A stretch of 64,000 bases of DNA from Planctomycetota bacterium. Its GTDB lineage: Bacteria; Planctomycetota; B15-G4; SIAN01. Location: NCBI GenBank assembly GCA_028289345.1, contig JANQQL010000010.1, positions 434,001-498,000 of the forward strand. Direction: 5' to 3'. The translations under genes were made by a program, and so were the position numbers. Of the stretch, positions 10,764 to 19,915 are shown piece after piece (position 1 is the first letter of the stretch; the number at the start of each line of letters is the position of its first letter). The notes beneath the pieces were generated by a model, which saw only the letters and a program-made list of their open reading frames with translations, did no database searches and was not told where the DNA came from.

Positions 10764-12047
10764 TCATCCCGACGTGTCGTCCAGGAAACGCCAGACCGTC
10801 GCAAAGATTCGCTCGAGAATGCGACGGTCCGCAGTCACGATCTCGGCGTCGCCCTGCATCTCCGGTCGGTACGTCAAATCGAGTCCCGTCGAGGTTTGGA
10901 GCCCCTGAGGAAACGCGACCTTCACGCAGTATTCGTCTTCCTGGGCGACCCGGGCGATCTCCTCGACCCGTCCTCGAACGGCTCCAAACTCATGAAATGG
11001 AAACCCGTCGAACTTGACGCGAACCGACTGACCGACGCGCACCTGTCCGGACCCTGGTCGCGGAAGTGCCAAGCGTCCCACGAAGCGCTGCACGGGTCCC
11101 TCGGGGACCACGGTCAAGACTTCTTCGTTCTTCGTGACGAAGTGATGGTCCGCCCATCCTTGGGTGAATGACACTGTTCCTGCCACGGGCGCGCGCAGCG
11201 CGTGCTCATCCAACGCCAACCTCGCCGCCGCAAAGAACCTCTGCGCTGCCAGATTCAGCGAACGCTGCACTCTCTGAAACTCTTGTTCCTGGGTGCGCAG
11301 GAGCTCCACGATCTTTCGTTGCTGCTGATTGCCCTGGATTTCCGCCTGGATCACCCGGGTTCGAGCTGCCTCCAAGGATCTCTTGCTCGCCAGGAACGAC
11401 ATCTCGGCCGTCACGGAGTCCCGTTCGGACGCCAGCTCGTTCTCCTGCAACAACCTCGCCGTCTCGTGGCCACGCTTGGCAAGATCCACTTCTCGCTCCA
11501 GGAGTTCCACGTTGCGCCGCTCTTGGACCATGAGCGCCGAGTACTTTTCGACTTCCTGGCGGCCCAAACGAATGCTCGAGTCGAAGTAGTCGGAGCCGCG
11601 AAAGTCCCGATACTCCTGGTACGCATGAACCAGCTCTGCGAGCTTTGGCTGCAACGTCCCGAGGTGCCATTCCGGGTGTCCGGTCAGGGGCCACGACTCT
11701 TCGGACACACGAGCAAGGACTTCTTCCCAAGCCAGAATGGCAGCCACCACATCCTCGTAACGCCCGCGGCCTTGCACCCACGCCAGGAGTGCCCCGGTGT
11801 CCACCGGATCCCCCTCCTTCACGTGCCAACGCAACGGTCCACTGGCAGGAGCCACGACGCGAACCGGTGGATCCGGAGTCGTCACTTCGATCCGGGCGCC
11901 AATCACCTTCGGATAGCGGACTACCCAAGCTCCCAGGAAAAGGAACGCGACCGCCAGAGCGATCATCGGCCCCCCGAATCGCAGGATCCAAGGAGGCATG
12001 GCCCCAAGGATCTCCTGATAAGCCGCGCTGTTGTTTTCGATCGGCAT
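10764..12047 (-). CDS. HlyD-type membrane fusion protein of a peptide exporter
   Basis: This 427-residue adaptor has a short cytoplasmic N-terminus, one membrane segment (IALAVAFLFLGAWVV) and a lipoyl/barrel half (VVAPASGPLRWHVKEGDPV). A long coiled coil spans about 120-310, and the second barrel half (LRAPVAGTVSF) precedes a C-terminal beta domain. This is the standard order for adaptors that link a type 1 ABC exporter to an outer-membrane channel. The ATG overlaps the stop of the ABC transporter gene (TGATG), implying translational coupling. It is the last gene of the peptide cassette. No TolC-like channel is present in the window, so an unlinked one would be required. Confidence 0.92.
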   Translation of the reverse strand: MPIENNSAAYQEILGAMPPWILRFGGPMIALAVAFLFLGAWVVRYPKVIGARIEVTTPDPPVRVVAPASGPLRWHVKEGDPVDTGALLAWVQGRGRYEDVVAAILAWEEVLARVSEESWPLTGHPEWHLGTLQPKLAELVHAYQEYRDFRGSDYFDSSIRLGRQEVEKYSALMVQERRNVELLEREVDLAKRGHETARLLQENELASERDSVTAEMSFLASKRSLEAARTRVIQAEIQGNQQQRKIVELLRTQEQEFQRVQRSLNLAAQRFFAAARLALDEHALRAPVAGTVSFTQGWADHHFVTKNEEVLTVVPEGPVQRFVGRLALPRPGSGQVRVGQSVRVKFDGFPFHEFGAVRGRVEEIARVAQEDEYCVKVAFPQGLQTSTGLDLTYRPEMQGDAEIVTADRRILERIFATVWRFLDDTSG

Positions 12048-14326
12048 CAGGTTCCCAATTCGAGCTGGTTCTTGATGAGCCGGTAGTAGGACCCACGACT
12101 TCGCGTCAGGCTTTGGTGGTCCCCGCATTCCACCATTCGCCCTTCGTCGAGAACGAGGATCTGATCCGCTTTGCGAACCGTGCTCAAGCGATGGGCAATG
12201 ACAAGAACCGTTCGCCCATCGAAGAAGCGATCCAAATTCTGCATGATGATGCGCTCGTTGTTGGCATCCAGCGCGCTGGTTGCTTCATCGAAGAACACGT
12301 ACTGAGGATCTTTGTAGATGGCACGGGCAATCAAGATCCGCTGGCGCTGTCCCTGACTCAAGCCGGACCCATCGGGACCGACCTTGGTCTCGTAGCCAAG
12401 AGGCATGGCTTCGATCGTGTCGTGAATGTTCGCCATCCGGGCGGCGTGCAACAGCCGCTCCGAGTCAATCTCCTCAGTCCCGAGAGCGATGTTCTGGGCC
12501 ACGGACTCCGTGAACAGGTAGCCATCCTGAAGGACGACTCCGCAACGGGATCGCCACACTTCCGGACTCACATTGGAAAGCCGAAGGGCTCCCAGTCGGA
12601 TCTCCCCACGGGTCGGCGGATGGAACATGAGCAGCAGCTTCAGCAGAGTCGTCTTGCCACTTCCGCTGGGGCCGACGATGGCGGTAACTTTTCCCTCTGG
12701 AATCCTCAGGGACAAGTCGGTCAACACGCTTTCCCGATCTGCGCCTTGATAGCGGAACGACAGATTCTGAATCTCGATGCTCTTGTCGTGGGGCAGGGTT
12801 CGCGCCTGAAGGCGTCCGGTGGATCGTTCCTCGTCGGGGTGCTCGTGAAGCTCTGAGAGCCGTTCGAGACTTATCCTTGCATCCTGATAGGTCTGAGCGA
12901 AGTCCAAGAACTGCAGCAACGGGGCGTTGAGCTGGCCCACGATCTGCTGCAGCGCCATCATCATCCCCAGGCTGAGGTCTCCGTCGATCACCGCCTTGGC
13001 GGAGAGAAAGGTGATCAAGATGTTCTTCAACTCGTTGACCGTCGCCGCCCCCCCCTGCTGCATCTGCCCCACGGCCAGGCCTTTGGCTCGGGTCCGGAAA
13101 CGGCGCGCCTGAATCGCCTCCCACTGCCAACGTTTGCGTCGCTCTGCCTGGTTGAGCTTGATCTCCGGCATCCCGGTCAACAGCTCAATCATGTTGCTTT
13201 GCTCGTCGGCCACTTCGCTGAAACGGGCATTGTCCAAAGCCCGGCGGCGACGCATGAAAATTAGAACCCAGGAGAAAGAAACGGCACTGCCGGCGACAAA
13301 CAACAGGAAGATCGGGATGCTGTAGAAACACAACACGATTCCGTAAACCAAGACGTTGACCAGCGAGAACAAGATGTTGAGCGTCGTCGACGTCAGGAAC
13401 TGCTCAATGCGCGCCTGATCCTGCACTCGCTGCAGGAGATCTCCCAAAATGCGCGATTCGAAGAACGGCATCGGCAATCGCATGAGCTTCGCCAACAGAT
13501 CCGACAGCATCGTCAGGTTGAGGCGAACTCCAATGTGAAGCAGAACCCAACTCCGAATGAACTCCACAGAGGTCTTGCCACAGAACACCATGAGTTGAGC
13601 CAGCAGGATGGTGTAGACAAACCCGATGTTCTCGCCCTGGACTCCGACATCGACGATGGCCTGGGTCAGAAATGGAGCCACCAAGCTCAGCAGCGTTCCG
13701 ACTCCGAGGCCAAGGAGCAGCTGAAACAAGAAAGCCCGGTACTTTCGCAGGTAGGTGAACAAGAAACCCCAGCCCGAACCAGTTTCGTCCGTCGCTTCGC
13801 CGCGGTGAAAGTCCGGGGTGGGTTCCAGGGCGAGCACCAGCCCTTTCGCACCTTCTTCCCGATCGGCCCGCGCCCACGCTTTCAAAAAGGCCTCTCGAGG
13901 TACGGAACTTCTTCGGTGAGCCGGGTCGGCAATCCAGTAGCGACTTCCCCGGATCCGGTACAACACGACGAAGTGGGCTTGTCCCCAGGGAATCACGCAG
14001 GGCAGCGGGACATCCAACAAACGTTCGAAGGGCACCCGCGCTGCGAACGCCCGGAATCCCAAGGATTCGGCGGCTTCGGTCAAGCCCTGGAACGAGGCCC
14101 CGGTTCGATGAATCGACGCACGCTGGCGAACATCTCGCGCGGTGAACGTTCGCCCGTAGTGCGCGGCGATCATGCGCAGACAAGTCGGACCGCAGTCGTG
14201 CTTGTCGAGTTGACGAAAGTGAGGAAACCGACGCCGGCGCCAGAATGACTCCCTCGGCGCCACCTCTTGTTCCTGGGTGGCGCCCGCCTCGCCATTGTGC
14301 TTGCCGTTGTGTGTGGCTCGCTTCAT
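12047..14326 (-). CDS. C39 peptidase-containing ABC exporter (PCAT)
   Basis: The 759-residue protein joins three modules. Residues 34-150 are a C39 cysteine peptidase with the full active site: Gln39 and Cys45 in QLDKHDCGPTCL, His118 in GQAHFVVL, Asp134 in WIADPA. Then come six membrane helices (about 190-470). The C-terminal ATPase has Walker A GPSGSGKTT, signature LSQGQRQR, Walker B YVFFDEATSALD and an H-loop IAHRLS. Such transporters cut precursors after a double-glycine leader and export the mature peptide. The gene lies 18 bases after the VKOR fusion gene and one base into the HlyD start. The substrate is most likely the Cys-rich peptide encoded at 16097-16285. Confidence 0.95.
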   Translation of the reverse strand: MKRATHNGKHNGEAGATQEQEVAPRESFWRRRRFPHFRQLDKHDCGPTCLRMIAAHYGRTFTARDVRQRASIHRTGASFQGLTEAAESLGFRAFAARVPFERLLDVPLPCVIPWGQAHFVVLYRIRGSRYWIADPAHRRSSVPREAFLKAWARADREEGAKGLVLALEPTPDFHRGEATDETGSGWGFLFTYLRKYRAFLFQLLLGLGVGTLLSLVAPFLTQAIVDVGVQGENIGFVYTILLAQLMVFCGKTSVEFIRSWVLLHIGVRLNLTMLSDLLAKLMRLPMPFFESRILGDLLQRVQDQARIEQFLTSTTLNILFSLVNVLVYGIVLCFYSIPIFLLFVAGSAVSFSWVLIFMRRRRALDNARFSEVADEQSNMIELLTGMPEIKLNQAERRKRWQWEAIQARRFRTRAKGLAVGQMQQGGAATVNELKNILITFLSAKAVIDGDLSLGMMMALQQIVGQLNAPLLQFLDFAQTYQDARISLERLSELHEHPDEERSTGRLQARTLPHDKSIEIQNLSFRYQGADRESVLTDLSLRIPEGKVTAIVGPSGSGKTTLLKLLLMFHPPTRGEIRLGALRLSNVSPEVWRSRCGVVLQDGYLFTESVAQNIALGTEEIDSERLLHAARMANIHDTIEAMPLGYETKVGPDGSGLSQGQRQRILIARAIYKDPQYVFFDEATSALDANNERIIMQNLDRFFDGRTVLVIAHRLSTVRKADQILVLDEGRMVECGDHQSLTRSRGSYYRLIKNQLELGT

Positions 14327-14344: not shown

Positions 14345-16009
14345 TCAGCGAACCCCGACCGGCTTGCGTGGCGCCGATCGCAGCAAGTGCTCCAGATCCT
14401 GGAGTCGTAAAGAGCGAGGCAATCGACGATCGTTGACAAAGATCGTCGGCGTGCCCTGAACTCCGACGCACTGCGCCCAGCTTTGGGTTTTGCGAAGGGT
14501 CTCCCGTGCCTTCTCGAGAGACCCGTCGCAATCCCGAAGTGGGAAGGCGATCAGCAGCGACGAAACCGTCGCTGGCTTTTCTTGATACCAACGGTGCAGA
14601 AGAGTAAGGGCGTCCTTGGATCGCCCCTCGACGCCGAGGGCCAAGACGTGAAGCGCCAGGAGTCCCGGGTCCCCACTCTCTTCGGATCCAAGGATTCGGA
14701 ACGTGACTCGAACCTGGTGGGGATAGCGGGAAACGAGACGCTGGGCAACTTCATGGGCTTCCGCACAGTACTGGCAGACGGGACTGGTGACCAAGGTCAG
14801 CGAAAACGGGGCGTTGGTCACTCCCAAGGTCAAGTCTCCCGAGAGAGCGGGGATGACCACGGCCGACTCCTTCTCGAACAGCTGGGCCATGACGCCAGGG
14901 TCGCGGATCAGGCGAAGGAACCGGTAGCGCCACTCTTCCGCCTGACTGGCCTGCGCTTGCCACGGGCGAACCAGGACCCAGAGGAATCCAGGCAAACCAA
15001 ATCCTACGGCCATCAGGCCGACCCCCGCGCCATTCCACATTGCGAAGTTCGTGTCCTGAAGGAGCAGCCAGAGGAGCAGCTCAATCACGAACAAGGCCTG
15101 CACTGCAAGGCACAGAGGACACCACTGCCTGACCACTCGTGCCTGATAAAACACCGAGAAACAAACGTAGGGAAGAGTCGCCAACGACATCCCTCGCAGG
15201 CAACCGAGAGCCGTCACTCCTGCGGCCGCGGTCAGCCCCATCGTCACCATGCCTCCAAGGAAGTACAGCACTCCCAAGTCGGCCATGGGAACCACGCCGA
15301 ACAACTTGGAAGCCGGCGAGTTCAACACCGAGAGGCAATCCGACCGGGAACCCACTCGACACAGTTTCTGCATCCACGACGACCCGCGACCGCTGCTTTC
15401 CAACACCAGAAGGCCGCTGACGAGGATTCCCATCACCTTCACACTGAGCAGTGCCAACAACCCGGGAGATTGCCTGTACGCCAAGCACAAGAAACCCAGC
15501 CACACGGACAGGAGGGCGATTCCTCCGACCCAAAGCCCACCGGCTCGCAGGGACTCCCAGCGCTCCTTCCTTTGGTCGTCTGGATTGGGAACCACCGGCG
15601 TCTCGGGAGTGGGAGCCACAGCCAGAATGCGGCCCGACCAGCGATGGGCAAAGTCGGTCCTCGGCACCGTGGACCAACCGGACGCCGGATCGAGGAGGGT
15701 CACCTGATCGGATGCTAGCTCGTTGACAATGACGAAGCGGCCCCCGTCTTCGTGCAAGTGCGCGAGACACGGAAGAGGGATTTGGTCGAGCTGCTCCTGG
15801 GCAACTCGAAAGGCTTCCGATTCCATGCCGAAGCTCGCCAGGCTGTCGCGCGCACTCAACAAGCTCGGGAACTCGGGATGACCGCGGAGTGCATCCTGCA
15901 CGCTTCGCCGCGGCACCGAGATGTCCATCTGCCGAAGCAGATTTTGCATCGCCGTCGGTAGGTTGTCGGAATCGTCCTTCTGCTTGGACCAGACTCGTGC
16001 AGCTTTCAT
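14345..16009 (-). CDS. VKOR-thioredoxin fusion with N-terminal degenerate C39-like domain
   Basis: The 554-residue membrane protein has three parts. Residues 1-135 resemble a C39 peptidase, but the catalytic Cys position is Asn16 and the His position is Arg91; only Asp107 (TLLDPASG) remains. Residues 157-350 are a vitamin K epoxide reductase domain with several membrane helices, loop cysteines 217 and 225, and the redox centre CPLC (297-300). Residues 390-550 are a thioredoxin/DsbA-like domain with CQYC (412-415) and a cis-Pro (GTPTIF). VKOR fusions form disulfides, passing electrons to quinone. The ATG at 16009 has GGGGGTGG upstream; a GTG at 16039 is less likely. Inference: the protein binds the leader and oxidises the Cys-rich core. 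Confidence 0.9.
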   Translation of the reverse strand: MKAARVWSKQKDDSDNLPTAMQNLLRQMDISVPRRSVQDALRGHPEFPSLLSARDSLASFGMESEAFRVAQEQLDQIPLPCLAHLHEDGGRFVIVNELASDQVTLLDPASGWSTVPRTDFAHRWSGRILAVAPTPETPVVPNPDDQRKERWESLRAGGLWVGGIALLSVWLGFLCLAYRQSPGLLALLSVKVMGILVSGLLVLESSGRGSSWMQKLCRVGSRSDCLSVLNSPASKLFGVVPMADLGVLYFLGGMVTMGLTAAAGVTALGCLRGMSLATLPYVCFSVFYQARVVRQWCPLCLAVQALFVIELLLWLLLQDTNFAMWNGAGVGLMAVGFGLPGFLWVLVRPWQAQASQAEEWRYRFLRLIRDPGVMAQLFEKESAVVIPALSGDLTLGVTNAPFSLTLVTSPVCQYCAEAHEVAQRLVSRYPHQVRVTFRILGSEESGDPGLLALHVLALGVEGRSKDALTLLHRWYQEKPATVSSLLIAFPLRDCDGSLEKARETLRKTQSWAQCVGVQGTPTIFVNDRRLPRSLRLQDLEHLLRSAPRKPVGVR

Positions 16010-16096
16010 CGGCCACCCCCTCTCCACGCAATGGGTCACAGCGGAGCTTCGATCGCGAAGCCCCGCCGTGGATCGAACCTTGTCTGTGAGGGTGGG

Positions 16097-16285
16097 CTAG
16101 TGGCAGCAACACTCCACGTCGCCGGTTTGGATGTTCCGGCAACACCCGCCGCACGGGGTCTTCCAGCAGAAACCCCAGAAGTCGAAACCGTCACAGCCGC
16201 CACCACCGCGCACGGCCTTCATTTCGGTTTCGTCCAGCGGCTCGACAGCGCTCAGCTCGCGAAGATCAGCCAATGACTTACGCAT
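16097..16285 (-). CDS. Double-glycine-leader, cysteine-rich precursor peptide
   Basis: This 62-codon gene starts at an ATG with AAGGA eight bases upstream. Residues 1-28 form a leader ending LDETEMKAVRGG, which fits the double-glycine rule exactly (Leu-12, Glu-8, Met-7, Val-4, Gly-2, Gly-1). Cleavage after Gly28 would release 34 residues starting GGCDGF. The core carries eight cysteines (residues 31, 40, 45, 48, 49, 59, 60, 61) and ends CCCH, enough for four disulfides. Three aromatic residues and two Trp lie in the first half. The next three genes encode a disulfide-forming VKOR fusion, a C39 exporter and its adaptor, so this is the evident cargo. No modification enzyme for lanthionine or thiazole chemistry is nearby. 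Activity (antimicrobial, signal or metal-binding) is unknown. Confidence 0.85.
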   Translation of the reverse strand: MRKSLADLRELSAVEPLDETEMKAVRGGGGCDGFDFWGFCWKTPCGGCCRNIQTGDVECCCH

Positions 16286-16524: not shown

Positions 16525-17061
16525 ATGCGGGACAAACAGTTCTCGGTTTCCACCCCCCGACTTTGGGCCGAGGTCTATCTCGAGCTCCACGCGTTGGCGA
16601 CTCAACTGCTCCGCCATCACCAGCGGACCAGTCCCCTCCACGCCACGTCCCTGCTTCACGAAACGTACTTGCGGCTGGCGAGAAATGGGCGGGGTTACGA
16701 CAACCGTGCTCATTTCCTGTCCACGGCCGCCCGGGCGATGCGTTACGTTCTCGTCGATCAAGCGCGCCATCGGCAAGCCCTCAAGAGACTCCCCGTTCCC
16801 CTCGAAAGCTCCACGGACCCGCAGGCGATGCCTGATTCAAATCTGGCGTTGCTGACCGTCCACGAGTTGCTCCATGAGCTCTCGGATCTGGATCCTCGCA
16901 AAGCCCAAGTCGTCGAACTTCGCTTCTTCGGCGGGTTGGATGTGGAAGAGGTCGCAGGAGTTCTCGGCTGCTCTCAAGCGACGGTCAAACGAGACTGGAC
17001 CTTCTCGCGCGCCTGGCTGCGTCGGCGACTCCGATCTCCCACGAGCCCCGGTCATGGGTAA
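16525..17061 (+). CDS. ECF sigma factor (Planctomycetes/Acidobacteria type), pair 1
   Basis: The 178-residue protein has sigma region 2 (LRHHQRTSPLHATSLLHETY, then RAHFLSTAARAMRYVLVDQA) and region 4 (VVELRFFGGLDVEEVAGVL, with the recognition helix CSQATVKRDW). This pattern, with ARAMRxxLVDxAR between the regions, is the ECF group common in planctomycetes. It would direct RNA polymerase to a small regulon. Its last eight bases overlap the start of the following kinase gene, so the two are translated together. It diverges from the peptide cassette. A shadow frame (16453-16776, minus) is ignored. Confidence 0.9.
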   Translation: MRDKQFSVSTPRLWAEVYLELHALATQLLRHHQRTSPLHATSLLHETYLRLARNGRGYDNRAHFLSTAARAMRYVLVDQARHRQALKRLPVPLESSTDPQAMPDSNLALLTVHELLHELSDLDPRKAQVVELRFFGGLDVEEVAGVLGCSQATVKRDWTFSRAWLRRRLRSPTSPGHG

Positions 17062-19915
17062 GTCCGACTGGCACCAGGCCGAAGAACTGTTCCATCAACT
17101 CCGGGAGATGGCGGAGCTCGATCGTGACACGGCTCTCGAAGCCACGGCCCGAAAAGACCCGGACCTTGCTCAGCAGGTACGACTCCTTCTTGTCGAGCAC
17201 GATCAGGGACAGGAGTTTCTGAGTCGACCGGCGTTCGAGGAACTCCCCCACTCCCGTTGGACACTGCCGGAGAACTGGAACTCGAGCCCCCCGCACTTTG
17301 GCCCCTACCGACTGACTCGACTCATCGGCAGCGGAGGCATGGGCGTGGTCTACGAAGCAACCCACGAAGAAACCGAGGAGCGCGTTGCCCTGAAGGCCCT
17401 TCGCAGCGGGTTGCTGGCCGACGATCGCCAGCGCCAGCTGTTCCAGCGGGAGGTGCGCTGCTTGAGCCTCCTCCAGCACCCGGGCATTCCTCGCATGCTC
17501 GACTCCGGGGAAAGTGCCGAGGGACTCACCTACTTCGTGATGGAGTTCGTCCGCGGTCGCCCTCTCGACGAGTTCGTGCGCGACCAGGGACTCTCGCGTC
17601 GTGAGCGACTTCAGCTGTTCTCCAAGCTCTGCGACATCATCCGCTACGCCCATGGAAAAGGCGTGTTGCACCGCGACCTCAAGCCCGCCAACGTTCTGGT
17701 CACGTCCAGTCAGCACTCGGAGAACGCTCCGGAACTGAAGGTCCTGGACTTCGGCTTGGCACGACGAGCGAGTGAATCGGCTCCCCATACCTCGCGACTG
17801 ACCAAGACGGGACAAGTGTTCGGCACCTTGTCCGCCATGAGCCCCGAGCAAGCGCGAGGTGACTCGAAGTCCATCGGCCCCGCGACCGATGTCTACTCAT
17901 TGGGAGTCATCCTCTACGGATTGATTACCGACCGCGAGCCCTACGACCTCACCCCCCTCCCCCTGCCGCGCGCTCTCGAAGTCGTTTGCGAGCTCGAACC
18001 TCCTCGCCCCAGCCTTCACGACCCACTCCTTCGCGGTGATCTGGATGTGCTCACCCTGAAAGCGCTGGAGAAAGACCCGGCCCATCGCTTCCCCTCGGTC
18101 GCCGAACTCCAGGCGGAAGTGGATCGGTTCTTGAGTGGAGAGCCGATCCGCACCCGTCCACCCAGTCGCCGTCGGCTGCTTCGGCAAGCCATTGTCCGTC
18201 ATCGACTGATAGCCGGATTCACGATCGCGACTCTGGTTCTTTGCACGGTGGCCTCAGGCTGGCTCTGGGTTCTTTACTCCCGTGCGCAACGGGCGGAAGC
18301 AGCCGCACGAGTCGACGCTCACAGCGCCCGCCAAGTGGCTCGCATCCTGGAAGACCTGATCTCCTCCGCCGATCCGACTCAGTCCGAGGGCCCTGATCTG
18401 TTGGTCCGCGACGTTCTTGAAGAAGCAGAAACCTGGCTCCCCGCGGAAGCGGAAGACCAACCAGAAGTCGAAGCTGCACTACGCCTGGTCATGGGACGCG
18501 CCTACACCAACCTTCGCCTGTTCGACAAAGCAGAGTTTCAAACACGCATTGGCATCGACTGCTTGCAACGGGCAGGTGGCAACAACCGACGCCTGGGCTC
18601 CGCCAAGATCCTCTTGGGAGAGATCCTCCTTCATCGTCAACAAGTCTCCGAAGCGCGCCAGATCGTTCAAGAGGTCCTCCGTTCTCCCGAACTCTCGCCA
18701 CTCAATGAGCACAACCACGCGCGAGCCGTGCGGACCATGGGTTCCATTCACGAGGAATCCGGGGAACTCGAGGCTGCCGAGGCCAAATATCGAACAGCTC
18801 TGGAGTGGTATCGCGCCCACCGCCACCGACTGATCGGCGAATTCGTGGAGATGCTTGGCACGCTCGCCGGGTTGCGCGAGCGACGCGGAGACTTCCGGGA
18901 GGCAGCGACCTTGCTGCAAGAAGCGATGGACGCCGTGAGCCAGAGTGAAACAAAGAACTCTCTCTATGTGGCATCCATTCGGCGCCGGGTGGCACTACTG
19001 CGCCACCGCTTGGGCCAGCACACCGAAGCTGAATCACTCATCCGCCGCATTCTTGCCACCGACGAAGCACGCCTCGGCCCGCGTCACGCTCAGACGCTGA
19101 TGGACCGCGACCTGCTCGCCGCAATCCTCCGCGGTCAACAGAAACACCGGGAAGCGACGGCCATTCTTCGGGAAGTGCTTCAGGCCTACGAAGAAACCAA
19201 CCCCCAAAGCTCCCTTCGATTCGAATCTCAGACCAACCTCGCCGTCATCCTGTTCGAGACCGGTCGACTCGCCGAGGCGGAGGCTCTGCTCCACGAGATC
19301 CTGGCACATCGGCTCGCCCACAATGGCGAAGGACACCTGCGGACACGAACAACCTGGATGCTGCTGGGCGAAGTTCAGCTCCGCCAACACCGCCCCGCCG
19401 ACGCCGTCGACTCGCACCTTCGCGCGATCGAGATTAACGACCAACTCTTCGGAGAAGATCACTTCGAAGGCGGAATGATGCACGCCAGCCTCGCTCACGC
19501 CTACTATCTTTTGGAAGACTTCGTCCTGGCAGAGGATCACGCAGACGAGAGCTGGCGCCGGCTCAAAGACTCCGTTCCCGAGACGCATCCGCACGCGGTG
19601 ACGTGTCTCAACCTCCTGGCTCAACTCTCATTGGAAGACCACCGGTTCGACGATGCCGTCGACTACTACCGAGAACTCCTGCGACGCATCGAAGCGTCCC
19701 CGGAGATCCCGAGCGGCCGGATTCATGAAATGCGCCTCAAACTCGCGGACGCCTTGATTCGCGGCGATCGGTGGAGCGAAGCCGATGAGATCCTCGGCAA
19801 GAGCGAAGCATGGCTTCAACAAAACCACCCCGCGCATCACCCGTCCGTCCGCTTGGCGACTGAGCTTCGTCAGTCGATCACGCATACCGTCGCAAACTTG
19901 AACACACGGGAATAG
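17054..19915 (+). CDS. Membrane Ser/Thr protein kinase with C-terminal TPR sensor, pair 1
   Basis: The 953-residue kinase has a Gly loop (IGSGGMGVVYEA), catalytic Lys (VALKAL), HRD motif VLHRDLKPANVL, DFG motif LDFGLARR and activation segment MSPEQARG. A short N-terminal region of about 80 residues (EELFHQLREMAEL) precedes it and is shared with kinase 2. One membrane segment follows (FTIATLVLCTVASGWLWVLY). The remaining 570 residues are tetratricopeptide repeats, with recurring A-x-x-L-x-x-x-L-A pairs. The kinase domain is cytoplasmic and the TPRs probably face the periplasm. The start overlaps the sigma factor stop by eight bases, so it probably controls that sigma factor by phosphorylation, as inferred for similar pairs. 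Confidence 0.93.
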   Translation: MGKSDWHQAEELFHQLREMAELDRDTALEATARKDPDLAQQVRLLLVEHDQGQEFLSRPAFEELPHSRWTLPENWNSSPPHFGPYRLTRLIGSGGMGVVYEATHEETEERVALKALRSGLLADDRQRQLFQREVRCLSLLQHPGIPRMLDSGESAEGLTYFVMEFVRGRPLDEFVRDQGLSRRERLQLFSKLCDIIRYAHGKGVLHRDLKPANVLVTSSQHSENAPELKVLDFGLARRASESAPHTSRLTKTGQVFGTLSAMSPEQARGDSKSIGPATDVYSLGVILYGLITDREPYDLTPLPLPRALEVVCELEPPRPSLHDPLLRGDLDVLTLKALEKDPAHRFPSVAELQAEVDRFLSGEPIRTRPPSRRRLLRQAIVRHRLIAGFTIATLVLCTVASGWLWVLYSRAQRAEAAARVDAHSARQVARILEDLISSADPTQSEGPDLLVRDVLEEAETWLPAEAEDQPEVEAALRLVMGRAYTNLRLFDKAEFQTRIGIDCLQRAGGNNRRLGSAKILLGEILLHRQQVSEARQIVQEVLRSPELSPLNEHNHARAVRTMGSIHEESGELEAAEAKYRTALEWYRAHRHRLIGEFVEMLGTLAGLRERRGDFREAATLLQEAMDAVSQSETKNSLYVASIRRRVALLRHRLGQHTEAESLIRRILATDEARLGPRHAQTLMDRDLLAAILRGQQKHREATAILREVLQAYEETNPQSSLRFESQTNLAVILFETGRLAEAEALLHEILAHRLAHNGEGHLRTRTTWMLLGEVQLRQHRPADAVDSHLRAIEINDQLFGEDHFEGGMMHASLAHAYYLLEDFVLAEDHADESWRRLKDSVPETHPHAVTCLNLLAQLSLEDHRFDDAVDYYRELLRRIEASPEIPSGRIHEMRLKLADALIRGDRWSEADEILGKSEAWLQQNHPAHHPSVRLATELRQSITHTVANLNTRE

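Follow-up and report, generated by a model that had tools for sequence, protein, structure and literature searches.

The window (the whole 64,000-nucleotide stretch of DNA analysed here, from a Planctomycetota bacterium) carries at positions 14345–16009 of its minus strand a genuine gene encoding a fusion protein of 554 amino acids, with an ATG at 16009 preceded by the ribosome-binding site GGAGAGGGGG and a further in-frame GTG upstream of it at 16039. The neighbouring genes lie on the same strand, and the gene order as transcribed is precursor peptide, fusion protein, peptidase-containing ABC exporter (PCAT) and HlyD adaptor. The features of the locus are as follows.

16202–16285 (−): leader part of the precursor, with L(−12), E(−8), M(−7), V(−4), G(−2) and G(−1), compared with the PCAT substrate consensus (PMC6959990)
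16097–16285 (−): precursor peptide of 62 amino acids, with a leader of residues 1–28 ending ...LDETEMKAVRGG and a 34-residue core with 8 Cys (translation, leader motif match, ribosome-binding site before the ATG)
14345–16009 (−): C39-like/VKOR/thioredoxin fusion protein, 554 amino acids (Pfam, AlphaFold2 model, alignments)
15605–16009 (−): catalytically dead C39-like domain, residues 1–135, with Asn16, Arg91 and Asp107 (alignment, AlphaFold2, structure matches)
15479–15541 (−): additional membrane-spanning helix (TM A) that five-helix VKORs lack, with residues 157–177 as its hydrophobic core (AlphaFold2 helix 143–177; hydropathy of 63 relatives)
14960–15466 (−): VKOR five-helix part, residues 182–350, with C217/C225 and C297-P-L-C300 (Pfam, alignment, AlphaFold2)
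14375–14827 (−): DsbA/ScsC/BdbD-like thioredoxin domain, with CQYC at 412–415 (Pfam, AlphaFold2, structure matches)
12047–14326 (−): PCAT, with the C39 site Q/C/H/D intact (Pfam, alignment)
10764–12128 (−): HlyD-family periplasmic adaptor (Pfam)

The locus has the make-up of a double-glycine leader peptide/PCAT system, in which a precursor with the motif L(−12)xxxE(−8)[LM](−7)xxxxGG lies beside a PCAT with an intact C39 domain. Divergent from the operon, at 16525–19915 on the plus strand, lie an ECF-type sigma factor-like open reading frame and then a long one with a Ser/Thr kinase domain and repeats, as judged by eye. In the fusion, Pfam assigns Peptidase_C39 to residues 17–145 (E 1.4e-15), VKOR to 196–322 (E 1.9e-13) and Thioredoxin_4 to 401–553 (E 7e-10), ranges that are numbered from the GTG at 16039 and equal the ATG numbering plus 10; all other residues are numbered from the ATG. 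The AlphaFold2 model of the full-length fusion has a pLDDT of 89. Its middle part has the loop Cys pair and the CxxC motif in a membrane bundle that define a VKOR, and its thioredoxin part is DsbA-like, a thioredoxin fold containing a helical insert, with CQYC, GTPT at the TxP loop and structural matches to ScsC and BdbD. The CPLC (297–300) and CQYC redox centres named in a preliminary description of this DNA are present and, like the loop pair C217/C225, are conserved across the family in the alignment. The protein is a membrane enzyme that probably forms disulfides in a small exported peptide.

The N-terminal domain had been described beforehand as C39-like, with the catalytic Cys replaced by Asn16, the His by Arg91 and only Asp107 kept, and this is confirmed by an alignment of 91 fusions with 58 exporter C39 domains, PCAT1 and LahT, in which Gln10 occupies the oxyanion Gln column of the window fusion. 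The Cys-His-Asp plus Gln set of an active C39 peptidase is therefore broken in the window domain by Asn16 and Arg91, and a survey of the fusions for loss of the catalytic Cys, as proposed earlier, found it retained in 0/91 (Asn in 73), with His in 1/91, Gln in 3/91 and a variable Asp column (Asp in 38), whereas all four catalytic residues are retained in 58/58 exporters. Decay or chance in one gene is ruled out, because the Cys loss, usually with Asn in its place, holds across about 90 relatives; likewise, the comparison of fusions with exporters at the catalytic columns rules out a mis-annotated active protease. Modelled alone, the domain adopts a confident C39 fold (pLDDT 89), and its closest PDB matches in Foldseek come from structures of the PCAT1 and LahT peptidase domains in complex with substrate or leader; LahT 6MPZ gives a TM-score of 0.70–0.75 and an rmsd of 2.3 Å. 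The C39-like domain of HlyB (PDB 3ZUA) is among the structure matches too, and the EpsAB domain 4g54 matches less well. A C39-like domain (CLD) proper is a C39 fold that lacks the catalytic Cys and His and still binds substrate; the domain in the window has the fold, has lost these residues and conserves the docking segment, which makes it a candidate CLD.

This docking segment, the leader-groove segment at residues 44–57 (HPEFPSLLSARDSL), coincides with the best-conserved patch of the dead domain, H-P-x-Y/F-P-S-L-L-x-x-S-D-x-L, in which H is present in 89/91 fusions, P in 88, S in 86 and D in 87, and a patch so nearly invariant means that the domain has not simply decayed. It aligns with the leader-docking segment of PCAT1 that contains A55 and I59, two residues that form a hydrophobic knot with L(−7) and L(−12) of the leader (PMC6959990). 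At these columns most fusions have Leu (65/91) and Ser (75/91), and so do most exporters of the same loci (L 47/58, S 45/58); the window fusion has Leu50 and Arg54, of which only Leu50 is hydrophobic. Judged by these alignments, the dead C39-like domain still looks able to hold a precursor leader. The segment also differs from that of the exporters in a His-Pro, a Pro and a conserved Asn specific to dead domains, so another ligand is possible. The domain could also serve to dock on or regulate the exporter, for instance by pairing with or displacing its peptidase domain, with substrate specificity arising from proximity and not from leader binding. Tight linkage to PCATs is in keeping with such a module, as are the conserved His-Pro and Asn that exporters lack, but the segment conserved in the dead domain is the leader groove in exporters, and several loci have a fusion and a leader peptide with no PCAT nearby (though an exporter could be elsewhere), which leaves this explanation a slim chance.

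Six membrane helices are present in the AlphaFold2 model (A, 143–177, followed by 182–205, 242–263, 268–293, 298–316 and 327–368), and by hydropathy each of them lies above threshold in 61–63 of 63 relatives. The preliminary description had not counted the membrane helices. Four residues separate helix A from helix 1, and the two thus form a hairpin. In a VKOR, which has five helices, the N-side of helix 1 lies across the membrane from the redox centres; the extra helix A therefore returns the C39-like domain to the side that holds the Cys loop, CPLC and the thioredoxin. The AlphaFold2 model is blind to inside versus outside. By the excess of K plus R residues on the catalytic side over the opposite side, a statistical rule applied with script-set loop boundaries, the fusions have a mean of +7.8 and are positive in 63/63, with positive charges on the catalytic side and almost none opposite; the value is +7 for the window fusion, +12 for its paralogue in the source genome and +9 for a further fusion from the same phylum. 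Ordinary VKORs of this phylum, whose loci were read directly because an HMM based on the fusions missed most of them, have a mean of −3.0 and are negative in 21/28 (p 5e-14 versus fusions); several score zero or above, in at least one case from a wrong reading frame. The solved cyanobacterial VKOR has the ordinary charge pattern in its readable part. No hydrophobic N-terminal signal was found in 62/63 fusions. A periplasm-facing VKOR-thioredoxin enzyme is expected to have five helices and its N-terminus inside, and the fusions instead have six helices and a reversed charge bias. A cytoplasm-facing oxidase is favoured because the charge bias is reversed and a signal peptide is missing, and the sequence data suggest that the C39-like domain, the leader and the redox centres would all be on the cytoplasmic side, with the VKOR inverted. 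The cytoplasm is normally reducing, which counts against an oxidase that faces it.

With the ordinary orientation, VKOR, thioredoxin and, by the six-helix count, the N-terminal domain would all be periplasmic, and the C39-like domain would bind the exported core or the exporter in place of the leader. The known bacterial VKOR-thioredoxin enzymes are oriented towards the periplasm, and the EpsAB domain offers a precedent for a C39-like domain in a periplasmic protein. This arrangement is nonetheless considered unlikely: it runs against the charge pattern of every one of the fusions measured, requires translocation of a folded N-terminal domain of ~140 residues without a signal peptide, and leaves the docking segment with no leader to meet, because the exporter C39 domain cuts in the cytoplasm. 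It would also put leader and domain on opposite sides of the membrane, which the preliminary description had named as fatal to its proposal, and the charge pattern and missing signal peptide point to a shared cytoplasmic side. In a mixed topology, the one pictured in the preliminary description, a cytoplasmic C39-like domain would hold the leader while periplasmic redox centres oxidise the emerging core. A cytoplasmic N-terminus is indeed expected without a signal peptide, and the periplasm is the usual site of disulfide formation; an odd number of spanning helices would be required, however, and both the AlphaFold2 model and the hydropathy of 63 sequences give six, the first two joined by a four-residue turn, so that with the charge pattern violated as well this topology is distinctly unlikely. 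The preliminary description had proposed a leader-holding oxidase coupled to export, of which the supported part is a dead domain that keeps its docking segment beside a Cys-rich double-glycine precursor, conserved as such in about 90 relatives, and oxidation of the core outside is made unlikely by the six helices. The sixth helix and the probable inversion rescue the idea and change it from a leader inside with the core oxidised outside to oxidation before or at export.

About 90 C39-like/VKOR/thioredoxin fusions were found, mostly in Bacteroidota. A genome scan with a four-sequence alignment as query gave 185 relatives, of which the best 80 were kept, nearly all from Bacteroidota (to which the top-scoring loci are biased) and one from Elusimicrobiota; a scan of genome contigs queried with the two fusion sequences of the source genome gave no matches. 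In the same phylum, a fusion is present in 2/392 genomes at E 1e-15, the source genome and G018. The second copy in the source genome consists of a precursor (L012:3331-3531, minus strand) with a leader ending in GA and 7 core Cys, a fusion (L025:8058-9773, minus strand) that is the sister of the window fusion with 98% support in the tree, and a PCAT (L025:5848-8097, minus strand), and no HlyD gene was found beside it by profile. In addition, a tblastn search of plasmids gave full-length relatives in four genera of Bacteroidota (Spirosoma, Hymenobacter, Emticicia and Aureibacter), annotated as 'vitamin K epoxide reductase family protein'; a peptidase-type ABC exporter and HlyD are near every one of them. 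It also gave a split version on a Parabacteroides plasmid. The split, either a frameshift or natural, comes after the extra helix and before VKOR helix 1 in this plasmid (L023:6427-7972) and at the identical place in a Runella genome (L167:950-2661). A 388-residue 'short' VKOR in one Runella genome was ruled out as an ordinary VKOR, being a split or frameshifted fusion. Among 40 VKOR matches in 23 Bacteroidota genomes, each picked for holding a fusion, all are fusion-length frames but one, which is a split fusion. The Elusimicrobiota fusion (Endomicrobiellum, L068:494-2122, plus strand) groups with a Bacteroidales fusion with 100% support, which suggests transfer between the two groups.

A PCAT is present in 47/55 full-length fusion loci, and 8/55 have none within about 9 kb. 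In Pedobacter sp. L105, the fusion is followed not by a full exporter but by a C39 domain on its own, whose DCGPTC and NHF motifs are intact (L094:10590-11015, plus strand). Loci of the Sediminibacterium type (L085, L107 and L109) have two or more near-identical fusion genes in tandem within about 10 kb. In Emticicia and Hymenobacter loci (L020:9504-10847, L021 and L024:9434-10570), genes for TlpA-like disulfide reductases lie between fusion and exporter, which suggests additional redox steps after export.

The fusion loci were scanned for short open reading frames with a leader motif blind to cysteine, and 85 were found on the fusion strand versus 4 on the opposite strand. After deduplication, 79 of 82 peptides near fusions have at least 2 core Cys, and in 77 of these 79 the number is even, mostly 6, 4 or 8; no Cys was found in the leaders of the 82. 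The control, a small one, comprised 17 exporters without a nearby fusion in Bacteroidota genomes that also hold fusions, and 12 of its 15 peptides have no Cys and 2/15 have at least 2 core Cys (Fisher p 1e-11, a guide only, since the counts are linked by descent). The source-genome precursors have 8 and 7 core Cys, the 7 being an exception to the even numbers. A precursor in G018 (L005:947-1363, plus strand), directly upstream of the fusion, has a long, possibly Nif11-like leader, a GG site and 4 core Cys.

Taken together, the fusion is best read as a leader-gated, dedicated disulfide-forming enzyme for the double-glycine peptide, cytoplasmic in its activity through an inverted VKOR and acting before export, to which we assign a probability of roughly 0.58. 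The cytoplasmic dead C39-like domain would dock the leader helix of the precursor without cleavage, and the core cysteines would be oxidised by the tethered DsbA-like thioredoxin, which the attached VKOR, inverted so that its redox sites face the cytoplasm, would re-oxidise, with the electrons passing to membrane quinone. The precursor would then be handed to the adjoining exporter, whose live C39 domain would cut off the leader, and the core, folded or partly oxidised, would leave via the PCAT/HlyD channel. Because the cavity of PCAT1 is large (15,000 cubic angstroms; PMC6959990), a small disulfide-bonded peptide may pass the exporter. A leader reader that does not cut would act as the filter sparing general proteins that a cytoplasmic oxidase would need. 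The wider claim, that naturally inverted VKORs are widespread and form cytoplasmic disulfides, with a dead protease domain admitting only leader-bearing precursors to oxidation before export, is held at slightly better than even.

The dead domain shares with the C39 domains of the PCAT1 and LahT peptidases their fold and, by alignment, the leader-docking segment, but it has lost Cys, His and, in most relatives, Gln, and is fused to a redox enzyme, not to an ABC exporter. The HlyB C39-like domain, which binds substrate, is also a dead C39 fold; however, it belongs to an exporter and serves a C-terminal signal, whereas that of the fusion is attached to an oxidase, has double-glycine leaders as neighbours and best matches the PCAT type. 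The Synechococcus VKOR-thioredoxin (PDB 3KP9/4NV6) and ordinary bacterial VKORs have the same VKOR bundle, loop Cys pair, CxxC and fused thioredoxin, and differ in that they have five helices, lack a C39-like domain and show the reverse charge bias. An inward-facing VKOR reportedly exists in Aeropyrum pernix, a natural precedent for cytoplasmic disulfide formation; that enzyme is archaeal, and we know of no C39-like domain or dedicated leader peptide associated with it. The loci of bacteroidetocins (class IIf bacteriocins) similarly combine a double-glycine Cys peptide, a thiol oxidoreductase and a peptidase-type ABC exporter in one operon, and deletion of the 'thiol oxidoreductase' gene attenuates activity (PMC6671954). 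Compared by gene content only, that oxidoreductase is described without a C39-like domain or VKOR, and the loci, typified by a peptide whose leader is short, also carry a separate five-helix protein (PMC6671954). The fusion architecture is already visible in databases by domain names, and the open-access literature gave no account of a dead domain of this kind, of an inverted orientation of these enzymes or of their link to even Cys numbers, the nearest being the bacteroidetocin 'thiol oxidoreductase'.

If the proposed reading is true, disulfides would be formed safely in the reducing cytoplasm by an oxidase tethered to a leader reader, so that only one peptide is oxidised. Leader-guided modification is known for lanthipeptides and other RiPPs, and it would extend to disulfide formation. 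The fusions would also add a second natural example of a VKOR that faces the cytoplasm. Bacteroides has been reported to be without general disulfide machinery (PMC6671954), and the enzyme would help to explain how disulfide-rich peptides occur in Bacteroidota despite this. For genome mining, the fusion also provides a simple marker of disulfide-rich secreted peptides.
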